From IMG/VR virus record IMGVR_UViG_3300020436_000075, positions 1 to 26,515 of that record: a stretch of 26,515 bases of DNA; one strand, written 5' to 3'. The notes beneath the pieces are model-generated. The model was not told where the DNA came from and did not search any database. It saw only the letters and a list, made by a program, of their open reading frames with translations. This DNA is from a virus. How positions within the stretch are numbered: the first letter of the stretch is position 1; the number at the start of each line of letters is the position of its first letter. The position numbers were made by a program, and so were the translations under genes. Positions 2 through 6,392 of this stretch are shown piece by piece.

Positions 2-256
2 ATCAAACAACTCAATAATCAAGTAATACAAGCAGAAGAAGATAAACAAAGAGCCTTTGAAAAAATCAACACGCTCCAAGAACAAAACAATCAAGCCCGT
101 GAAGAAGTTAGTAAACTTAAAAGTAAATTTGATAAGCACGATATAAATATGTTGAGCTTACGCAAACCTAAATTAATCGAGAATATAATTAACAAAGGAA
201 CAAAGGAGGTGTTAGGTGAATTTGAAAGTATTACTTCTCCTGCTGCTAACTTGTAG
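2..256 (+). CDS. i-spanin (Rz-like), 5' end outside window
   Basis: An open frame from the left edge encodes 84 residues, ending at TAG 254-256. The visible part is a charged helical coiled coil rich in Gln, Glu and Lys, followed by the segment KHDINMLSLRKPKLIENIIN, which resembles the C-terminal half of phage inner-membrane spanins. In that family an N-terminal membrane anchor precedes a periplasmic coiled coil that joins an outer-membrane lipoprotein and fuses the two membranes in the last step of Gram-negative lysis. The anchor would lie off the window. The strongest support is that a lipoprotein gene starts inside its 3' end in another frame, the classic Rz/Rz1 arrangement. Identification is by pattern. 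Confidence 0.75.
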   Translation: MKQLNNQVIQAEEDKQRAFEKINTLQEQNNQAREEVSKLKSKFDKHDINMLSLRKPKLIENIINKGTKEVLGEFESITSPAANL

Positions 257-596
257 TGGCTGCAGTTTAATAGGAAACGGACAGTACACACCAGAAACTA
301 AAGCGGTAGAAGTAGTAACTATCACAAAACCTGCTGCGGTATATCACCCACCTCTCCCTAATAAAATCAACACAAAACCTGTTGAATGGAAAGTTTTAAC
401 ACCAGAAATTATGGATGAATACCTCACAGATTTAAAAGAAGGCAACGCACCTACCAATGTTTACTATGGCGTTAGCCCTGTTGGATATGAAAACTTATCT
501 GTTAACATGGCAGAAATAAAAAGATATATTCGTCAGATTTTATCTATAGTAACCTATTACAAAGAGCTAGATGAACCAGAGAATAAAGATGAATAA
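216..596 (+). CDS. o-spanin-like outer-membrane lipoprotein (Rz1-like)
   Basis: This 126-aa protein begins at GTG 216, five bases after a strong ribosome site (AAGGAGGT, 203-210), so translation starts 41 bases before the i-spanin gene ends. The N-terminus is MNLK, a run of leucines, then TCSGC, read as a lipoprotein signal with C16 the likely lipidated Cys; C13 is an alternative. The mature part has a short Pro-containing stretch (VYHPPLP) and a structured region of about 70 residues with YYGVSPVGYENL and a helix near RYIRQILSIVTYYKEL. It is longer than lambda Rz1. I recall this C-terminal domain in other marine phage lysis regions but know no tested function. Its role as partner of the upstream i-spanin is inferred from nesting and the signal peptide. 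Confidence 0.7.
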   Translation: MNLKVLLLLLLTCSGCSLIGNGQYTPETKAVEVVTITKPAAVYHPPLPNKINTKPVEWKVLTPEIMDEYLTDLKEGNAPTNVYYGVSPVGYENLSVNMAEIKRYIRQILSIVTYYKELDEPENKDE

Positions 597-915
597 AGAA
601 CTTGAACCAGGAAGTGAGTATGAAAAGTACGATGCTGACGGTGATGGTGTGGTAACAGATGCGGAACTTGCTACTACAGAAAGATTACAAGCTCTTGAAA
701 TAGCTAATGAAAAAGCCGAGGCGCAAAAGAACATGTGCTGGTTCGCCCTATTCGGTATGCTCCTCTACCCAAGTGGCATTGTTATCACATCTTTTTTAAA
801 ATTGGACCAAGCTGCGTCTATACTCGGAGACATTGCGTCCGTATATTTTATCAGTGTGTCGGGGCTAATCGCAGCCTTTTTCGGCTTCCAAAGCTGGAAC
901 AACGGCAAAAAATGA
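589..915 (+). CDS. EF-hand holin (two membrane helices)
   Basis: From ATG 589 this is 108 aa. An in-frame ATG at 571 would add six residues; 589 is preferred because MNKELEPGSEYEKYD looks like a natural start and AGAGA lies six bases upstream, but 571 also has AAAGAG. The N-terminal part holds a complete 12-residue EF-hand loop, D15-A-D17-G-D19-G-V-V-T-D-A-E26, with acids at positions 1, 3, 5 and 12. A short helix follows, then two hydrophobic segments (about residues 51-70 and 76-100) with a tight turn. Position between spanins and lysozyme plus the topology give the holin call: it should form the inner-membrane lesion that lets the signal-less lysozyme out. Calcium binding is inferred from the loop. 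It overlaps the o-spanin stop by 8 bases. Confidence 0.75.
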   Translation: MNKELEPGSEYEKYDADGDGVVTDAELATTERLQALEIANEKAEAQKNMCWFALFGMLLYPSGIVITSFLKLDQAASILGDIASVYFISVSGLIAAFFGFQSWNNGKK

Positions 916-974
916 TTGAGTTAGCAATAGGAATTACCATAGGTTATATACTAGGAAAATACGTATGGCGGTAG
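912..974 (+). CDS. 20-residue single-helix membrane peptide
   Basis: The gene encodes MIELAIGITIGYILGKYVWR. Its ATG overlaps the holin stop (ATGA, 912-915), and its last 10 bases overlap the start of the lysozyme gene at 965, so it is locked between two lysis genes. Almost the whole peptide is one hydrophobic helix with Gly every few residues (GxxxG-like spacing G7, G11, G15) and a positive C-terminus (K16, R20). No separate ribosome site is needed with ATGA coupling. Possible roles are a holin modulator, an antiholin-like partner or a pinholin-type peptide; nothing in the sequence decides. A longer frame beginning at 735 shares its end but is antisense-like junk upstream. Confidence 0.5.
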   Translation: MIELAIGITIGYILGKYVWR

Positions 975-1453
975 ATATAAAGGTTCTCTATGATGAAATA
1001 GCAAGTGATGAGGGCAAGGTGCTTCATGCATATCTCTGCACAGAAGGTCACGCTACCATTGGTATAGGACATAAAATTCTTAACACAGATCCAGAAGTTA
1101 GTCTGCCTATTAGAGATGCTTACGATAGTGCGCCAGCAGAAGACAGTATTACAGAACATAGATGCTACGAGTTATTTCAAGAAGATGTGCAGCTTGCTAT
1201 AAATGGTTGCCGTAGAATATATAATAGCTGGGAGGAACTACCTCAAGAAGCCCAGCACATTCTTGTTAATATGTGTTTCCAAATGGGGCCAACTGGTCTT
1301 GGTAAATTTAAACACATGAACCAAGCGGTAGAAGATCAAGCTTGGGGGCAGGTCGCACTTGAAATGGACGACAGTAGGTGGAGTAGACAAACTCCAGAAA
1401 GAAGCAAACGTTTACGATTACGAATGCTTAAACTAGCAGACAGAGACGATTAG
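965..1453 (+). CDS. T4-type lysozyme endolysin (GH24)
   Basis: The 162-aa protein is close in length to T4 lysozyme (164). The hallmark block is SDEG followed by TEGHATIGIGH. Aligned to T4 E11-D20-T26, the residues here are E16, C25 and T31 with identical spacing (9 and 6). Thus the catalytic Glu and Thr are kept and Asp is replaced by Cys; P1 Lyz is a known natural case with Cys at this place. The C-terminal half keeps VNMCFQMG and the WSRQTPERSKRLR stretch typical of the fold. No signal peptide or anchor is visible, so export should depend on the holin. It should cleave the MurNAc-GlcNAc bond of peptidoglycan. The start overlaps the 20-residue peptide gene by 10 bases. Confidence 0.92.
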   Translation: MAVDIKVLYDEIASDEGKVLHAYLCTEGHATIGIGHKILNTDPEVSLPIRDAYDSAPAEDSITEHRCYELFQEDVQLAINGCRRIYNSWEELPQEAQHILVNMCFQMGPTGLGKFKHMNQAVEDQAWGQVALEMDDSRWSRQTPERSKRLRLRMLKLADRDD

Positions 1454-5840: not shown

Positions 5841-6392
5841 TTAGCATTTAATTCTACCGCATTTTCGTATATTCCTTTGACGCTCTTTTGCTTTTTTAAG
5901 CCGTTCTTTAGCATCTTCTAACTGTACTTTCTCATATGCTTTGTTTAAAACAAATCCTGTTCCTGTAATTACAATTAAAGAAACCCCTATAAACAAAGCT
6001 ATAGCCCAGTTTTTTATCTTTTCTTTGCGCTGCTTGCGTCTTATATGTGCTGTTTTTAAAAACTCTTTGTGGTCTCTTTCTGACTGCGCTCTCAACCTCT
6101 GAGCCTCATGGTAAACATCGGCACAGCCCGACATAAGGCATATATCTTTTATCTGCTGCTCTTGCATTTTAATTTTGCGTCTATGAATACTAAGATCCAT
6201 TGCCTCTTTTGGCGTGAGAGGCCGCTTTGATTTAGTCTTTTGCTCCCATTTATCCAGCTTACTTGACGCTGCCCCAAACTTAGACAACAAAGACACCGCA
6301 TCAGAAGCATTAGCTTTGCTTTCTTTTAATGTAGAAATGGTTGAGTTTATTGCGCTGAGTGCGCTACCGATTGCCGCTAATTCAGCGAACAT
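5841..6392 (-). CDS. membrane protein with basic coiled coil, 183 aa
   Basis: No family is firmly recognised. Residues 1-45 form an amphipathic Ala/Ser-rich helix (ELAAIGSALSAINSTIS). Residues 50-125 are charged and helical, with a Cys pair at C85 and C90. Residues about 128-149 form one clear transmembrane helix (NWAIALFIGVSLIVITGTGF). The C-terminus is again charged coiled coil, with two more Cys (C178, C183). I recall similar proteins in marine phage tail regions without known function. The start lacks a good ribosome site, and begins 6 bases after the stop of another small membrane gene, so coupling is likely. It could be a tail-associated membrane factor or a second lysis-type protein. 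Confidence 0.7.
   Translation of the reverse strand: MFAELAAIGSALSAINSTISTLKESKANASDAVSLLSKFGAASSKLDKWEQKTKSKRPLTPKEAMDLSIHRRKIKMQEQQIKDICLMSGCADVYHEAQRLRAQSERDHKEFLKTAHIRRKQRKEKIKNWAIALFIGVSLIVITGTGFVLNKAYEKVQLEDAKERLKKAKERQRNIRKCGRIKC

Follow-up and report, generated by a model that had tools for sequence, protein, structure and literature searches.

A two-helix membrane protein with a conserved EF-type loop, a probable holin, in the lysis cassette of a marine phage

It is a long-standing open question what keeps holins silent until they trigger all at once. The viral DNA analysed here (the window, which is an entire IMG/VR virus record of 26,515 bases) encodes near its start a small membrane protein with a loop of EF type at its N-terminus, and this locus raises the question whether calcium contributes to the timing or the manner of host lysis. 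The features on which the analysis is based are the following.

2-256, plus strand: C-terminal part of an i-spanin (Rz-like), the gene being cut off where the record begins (phrog_739, Rz-like spanin, E=2.9e-6).
216-596, plus strand: o-spanin (Rz1-like lipoprotein), overlapping the end of the i-spanin (phrog_812, Rz-like spanin, E=1.7e-12).
589-915, plus strand: protein with two transmembrane (TM) segments and an N-terminal calcium loop, holin candidate (ORF, family conservation, model).
631-666, plus strand: 12-residue loop of EF type, DADGDGVVTDAE, residues 15-26 (pattern, conservation, profile match).
742-798, plus strand: membrane helix 1, residues 52-70 (hydropathy in same-numbered relatives; inside model helix 24-69).
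832-888, plus strand: membrane helix 2, residues 82-100 (hydropathy in same-numbered relatives; inside model helix 73-107).
912-974, plus strand: hydrophobic micro-ORF of 20 aa, the start of which overlaps the stop of the holin candidate (ATGA; read from the sequence).
965-1453, plus strand: GH24 endolysin of the T4-lysozyme type (PF00959, E=7.7e-10; phrog_7 endolysin, E=2.9e-14).

The setting in a lysis cassette, which had been claimed in an earlier sequence-only reading, was borne out, with i-spanin and o-spanin on one side of the gene and the GH24 endolysin on the other. The o-spanin translation contains the lipobox-like stretch LTCSGC, and the N-terminus of the endolysin is without a hydrophobic stretch. 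Positions 589-915 of the plus strand form an exact ORF of 108 aa. An in-frame ATG at 571, upstream of the start at 589, would add six residues; most relatives lack a start of the 571 type, and a dual start at 571 and 589 was rejected on this ground.

In close relatives that share the residue numbering, a hydropathy scan revealed two hydrophobic segments at residues 52-70 and 82-100. The AlphaFold2 model, built with 48 sequences (mean pLDDT 76.4), consists of one helix from the loop through TM1 (24-69), a short turn and a helix at 73-107, with low confidence at residues 1-30 (pLDDT 47-65). Small size combined with membrane helices is a feature of holins and was found here (108 aa, two segments, two long helices). 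The loop had been described as lying directly before two membrane helices; two such helices do follow, but a spacer helix of about 25 residues intervenes between loop and TM1, so that 'directly before' was loose wording. Among 57 representatives of the family (clustered at 85% identity), lysine and arginine are more numerous in the N-terminal flank than in the inter-helix loop in all 57, and more numerous in the C-terminal tail than in that loop in 55, with equal numbers in the other two. Since the positive charges thus cluster outside the helix pair rather than between the helices, an N-in/C-in topology is predicted, with a cytoplasmic calcium loop, and a loop placed in this way could read the calcium difference between inside and outside. 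A fold search of the PDB with the model gave no match at E below 0.001, while in a viral structure library one match below this threshold was obtained, an unnamed 84-aa protein with 44% identity.

Homologues were detected by tblastn in 13 phage records. The matches were to the roseophages CRP-207, CRP-345, CRP-1, CRP-9 and CRP-810, Limnohabitans phage DC31, four Melnitz records and two HTVC008M records, and there was a weak match to Stenotrophomonas phage DLP_6 (E=0.4); in the nine records examined the homologue is annotated as 'hypothetical protein'. A first scan of IMG/VR, the patterns of which included the loop, confirmed 308 relatives, and 80 of the 308 were used. A profile scan with its sole DNA pattern in the linker before TM1 confirmed 592 relatives, of which the best 80 were used, and a similar scan of genome contigs with a loop-free pattern yielded six loci. 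The two IMG/VR scans have contigs in common, so that locus counts, including the 83 GH24 loci considered below, contain duplicates. As the best 80 of 592 were confirmed with a loop-bearing query, loop-less relatives are under-counted among them and were sought separately. Among Pfam and PHROG holin families no match above cut-off was obtained, the best being Phage_holin_3_6 with 13.5 bits (cut-off 28.4), and phrog_27150, of unknown function, was matched by 8 of 12 family members.

The loop had been read as a full 12-residue EF-hand loop with acids at positions 1, 3, 5 and 12, and this description held for DADGDGVVTDAE at residues 15-26, which additionally carries Gly at position 6 and Val at position 8. 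The strict loop pattern arose in 0.0165% of 200,000 shuffles of the window protein, and it has a single occurrence among the six-frame ORFs of the window (at least 30 aa), as it has in each of the three long relatives tested. In the representatives, position 1 is D in 55 of 56, position 3 is D or N, used freely, in 57 of 57, position 5 is D, N or S in 57 of 57, Gly6 is present in 56 of 57, position 8 is V, I or L in 57 of 57 and position 12 is E in 56 of 57; a single exceptional sequence was found for each of positions 1, 6 and 12, and the variable positions are 2, 7, 10 and 11. The sequence-only reading had left it to a survey of homologues whether the loop acids are conserved in comparison with the helices. 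In the 57 representatives the ligand positions proved almost invariant, and the ligands, Gly6 and the hydrophobic position 8 are as conserved as the key helix-region residues Q, M, W, P and Y. A lack of conservation of the loop acids, named in that reading as a refuting outcome, is therefore contradicted. A strict loop was present in 81 and a relaxed loop in 85 of 86 loci (the best 80 of 592 plus the six genome-contig loci), the 86th having an unread base at loop position 1. Moreover, synonymous codons alternate among relatives at the conserved positions. A chance motif is ruled out by the shuffles and the conservation. The first scan, with the loop among its patterns, could have favoured loop-bearing sequences, a bias that is answered by the scans patterned only outside the loop. 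Conserved ligands amid drifting neighbour positions argue that the loop is kept by selection, in a pattern as expected if metal binding is maintained. On this sequence evidence calcium binding by the loop is likely, and we consider binding in vivo to be quite probable. Calcium binding by a lone EF-type loop is usually weak.

In the comparison with solved EF-hand proteins the family profile reached E=3.2e-9 for its best match, a calcium-binding protein, and values from about 1e-8 for calmodulins, whereas the single window protein gave E=0.031 and 14.3 bits against Pfam EF-hand_1, under the cut-off of 25.4. With EF-hands and Dx[DN]xDG loops (calmodulin type, EF-hand_1) the holin candidate shares the 12-residue loop with ligands at positions 1, 3, 5 and 12, Gly6 and a hydrophobic residue at position 8, and the exiting helix, which is predicted at residues 24-69. 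It differs from calmodulin-type EF-hands in having a single loop, with no second EF-hand in the same chain of the window protein, in the fusion of this loop to a phage two-TM core, and in the entering helix, which some family members have only in short form or not at all. In the window protein the entering helix is modelled at residues 10-14 only, with low confidence there; only four to five residues stand ahead of the loop in 3 of 54 representatives, and HPA is found there in 18 of the 54. A strict helix-loop-helix 'EF-hand' is therefore doubtful for part of the family, and it is safer to describe the element as a Dx[DN]xDG loop that caps a long exit helix. The Dx[DN]xDG motif recurs in diverse settings and can be structural or regulatory (PMC3123361, available part).

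Such a loop need not sense anything. The metal site of the lysis protein may be structural only, Ca2+ or Mg2+ being held near-permanently and, by capping the long stalk helix or pairing two protomers, stabilising the protein. This reading is somewhat unlikely but, with the non-pore partner role considered below, one of the two main rivals: loops of this motif are often structural (PMC3123361, available part), the loop stands at the start of a 46-residue model helix and its position 3 is freely D or N. A structural site gives, on the other hand, no reason for the canonical Glu at position 12 (56 of 57), although this point is not exclusive, and there are related cores that manage without the loop.

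In DLP_6 the helices are kept and the loop is absent. Limnohabitans phage DC33 and Myoviridae sp. cta1H496 encode unannotated two-TM proteins without the loop, in the order two-TM gene, i-spanin with the o-spanin nested inside, then endolysin; in cta1H496 an extra small two-helix ORF precedes the endolysin. The helix pair of the DC33, cta1H496 and DLP_6 proteins (phrog_22774 / phrog_14936, unknown function) is homologous to that of the holin candidate, and the first two share its placement in a lysis cassette. The two groups differ ahead of TM1, where the loop-less proteins carry RWKNRRRMAW and the calcium-loop family a D/E-A-Q-R/K-x-M-x-W linker. The loop-less two-helix loci found in IMG/VR numbered 29, many of them near-identical, and 25 of the 29 have a spanin or endolysin match in the flank. 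The two-helix core has no need of the loop, as the homologues without it in lysis cassettes show; a core that resides in such cassettes without calcium makes the loop a module gained or lost, and DLP_6 together with the loop-less cassette cores indicates that calcium is inessential to the core.

In the GenBank records PQ492659 (L182:2989-3306) and MW202520 (L181:2998-3210) the two-TM ORFs directly before the spanins are left unannotated. The former is a 39-kb phage record with endolysin and spanins that is filed as Inoviridae, which looks like a taxonomy error.

Gene neighbourhoods were labelled against a reference set of our own, which comprised GH24, M15 and GH108 endolysins, spanins, lipase and GTA-type holin among others, and unusual endolysins would score as absent in the following counts. 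Lysis genes were found in the window and near 27 of the 57 representatives (endolysin in 17, spanins without a recognised endolysin in 8, GTA-type holin only in 2). Another 15 of the 57, including Melnitz and HTVC008M, are located in a T4-like gp26-gp51 baseplate-hub cluster, and 15 lie outside this cluster and without a recognised lysis gene (TerL/hp71 only in 5, no reference gene in 10). DLP_6 is one of the 15 hub-cluster representatives, and its next gene has a lysozyme domain.

The slot before the calcium-loop gene is occupied by GTA_holin_3TM, a spanin pair or a class-3 lipase (PF01764, E=2e-16), as located at 2-596 in the window, L187:419-823 and L112:1808-2389; the slot of the window is of the spanin kind. 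Of the 83 GH24 loci (duplicates included), 57 have a GTA-type holin in the neighbourhood, 13 have spanins, 11 a lipase and 2 none of these, and two of the three were found together in none of the 83. It may be that GTA-type holin, spanins and lipase serve at a comparable late stage, or that the GTA 'holin' is more than, or other than, the pore. In most sister phages the GTA-type holin gene is directly upstream of the calcium-loop gene. A GTA-type holin was not found in the spanin-type relative G001 (a fragment of 56.8 kb), nor a spanin or lipase in the fragments of the GTA-type relatives G002 and G003. In the G001 fragment the calcium-loop protein is thus the sole multi-helix protein of the cassette, and its gene, as the constant membrane protein of these cassettes, favours a holin identity. 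GTA_holin_3TM (PF11351) belongs to the same lysis region and is a gene neighbour in many relatives; unlike it, the window protein is without a PF11351 match at E up to 1.

The name holin given to the protein by the sequence-only reading is supported by the spanin and endolysin neighbours, while the lack of a holin-family match above cut-off, the GTA-type holin upstream in most sister phages and the hub-cluster homologues speak against it. Because 15 of 57 representatives stand beside baseplate-hub genes, the protein is called a probable holin only; that it acts in lysis at all appears rather probable from its gene context. A comparable case is mycobacteriophage LysF1a (PMC13056207, available part), which is alike in size class, two helices, predicted N-in/C-in topology, lysis-cassette location and a possible partner membrane protein. 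It differs in that a calcium loop is not mentioned in that part of the source, and in that the lysis role was shown there and is predicted for the holin candidate.

The second holin-like protein in most sister phages makes a partner role possible: another protein, either the GTA-type holin of the sister phages or the downstream 20-aa membrane peptide, would make the pore, and the calcium-loop protein would regulate it as holin partner or antiholin, with calcium as a possible release signal. We regard this as unlikely. GTA_holin_3TM adjoins the calcium-loop gene in 57 of 83 GH24 loci (duplicates included), so that the calcium-loop protein may not be the pore-former, the micro-peptide lies alongside in 72 of 80 GH24 loci, and there is precedent for holin systems of two proteins, one of them with two TM segments and N-in/C-in topology (PMC13056207, available part); but the spanin and lipase versions (24 of the 83 loci) are without a GTA-type holin nearby, as is G001 over its 56.8 kb.

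That the protein instead belongs to the tail or entry apparatus is improbable. In this reading it would act with hub and tape measure in T4-like phages, perhaps at the inner membrane of the host while virions assemble or DNA enters, and the lysis-cassette placement would be secondary. In its favour are the 15 of 57 representatives in the gp26-gp51 cluster, usually directly before the tape measure. Against it are the lysis genes close to 27 of the 57 representatives and to 25 of the 29 loop-less loci, and the gp26 region of cyanophage S-SM2 (gp26, small gene, long gene), which is without a gene of the calcium-loop type in between. Caulobacter phage Cr30 gp206, of 82 aa and without the loop, occupies the same T4-like slot; with a profile E=0.013, short of the inclusion threshold, it is no more than a possible distant relative. 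The homologues of Melnitz (L083:2501-2830) and HTVC008M (L085:2459-2791) are unannotated and lie between gp51 and the tape-measure gene.

The preferred reading is that of a holin or holin-pair member with a cytoplasmic EF-type loop, the sudden opening of which is triggered by calcium influx; as a whole it is put forward tentatively, with slightly less than even expectation. The two-TM N-in/C-in protein would carry the loop at the cytoplasmic end of the stalk entering TM1. As long as the membrane is intact, cytoplasmic free calcium would be low and the loop empty or Mg2+-bound. Seawater outside the cell contains about 10 mM calcium, which would enter through the first leaks and fill the loops. 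Filled loops would pair or straighten the stalk helices of neighbouring protomers, and this change would drive or lock the oligomer, so that opening becomes sudden. Calcium-influx gating is plausible, and the feedback by influx is speculative and rather unlikely. Still more doubtful is the wider proposal of a marine-phage family of calcium-gated holins, in which the loop senses seawater calcium at the first leak for all-or-none lysis and the homologues of Melnitz and HTVC008M are their unrecognised holins. A link of the loop to marine versus freshwater origin is confounded by kinship and is not claimed: in eleven hand-sorted isolates (the four Melnitz records taken as one and the two HTVC008M records as one), seven marine isolates have the loop and none lacks it, and of the non-marine isolates one has it (DC31) and three do not (Fisher p=0.024, kinship-confounded).

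The sequence-only reading had pointed to related marine phage proteins without an experimental study, which agrees with the relatives found and with the open-access literature, in which no paper on an EF-hand holin or on the calcium-loop protein family was found. The sole match there to 'EF-hand' with 'lysis cassette' (PMC5795418) concerns, in its available part, an unrelated orphan protein, and PMC11288001 and PMC6918029 contain no word starting with 'holin' or 'EF-hand'. For Melnitz, the curli CsgG pore was proposed by the authors as a pinholin analogue (PMC9004378, available part); a term search of this paper gave no word beginning with 'holin', and the calcium-loop gene is not mentioned as a holin in that part. 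The calcium-loop homologue provides a holin candidate for this phage. The novelty lies in the joining of a holin-like two-TM core to a calcium loop, and a selected ion-binding loop with natural loop-less relatives offers a direct handle on holin triggering.

Additional observations were made in the vicinity of the gene. Of 80 GH24 loci (duplicates included), 72 have by reading a peptide of 17-23 aa at this position that resembles the micro-ORF and carries a GYxxGK-type motif; the strict motif was found in 41 of the 80, seven have no such peptide and one has an unlike one. The peptide occurs in all three cassette versions and is without annotation. The endolysin at 965-1453 (plus strand) reads E-G-K-V-L-H-A-Y-L-C-T-E-G, the Cys of which we take to be at the position of the catalytic Asp20 of T4 lysozyme. 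Finally, a 183-aa protein encoded at 5841-6392 on the minus strand of the window is related (E=3e-6) to a coiled-coil/TM protein that adjoins the calcium-loop gene in other phages; in the window it is located several kb off.
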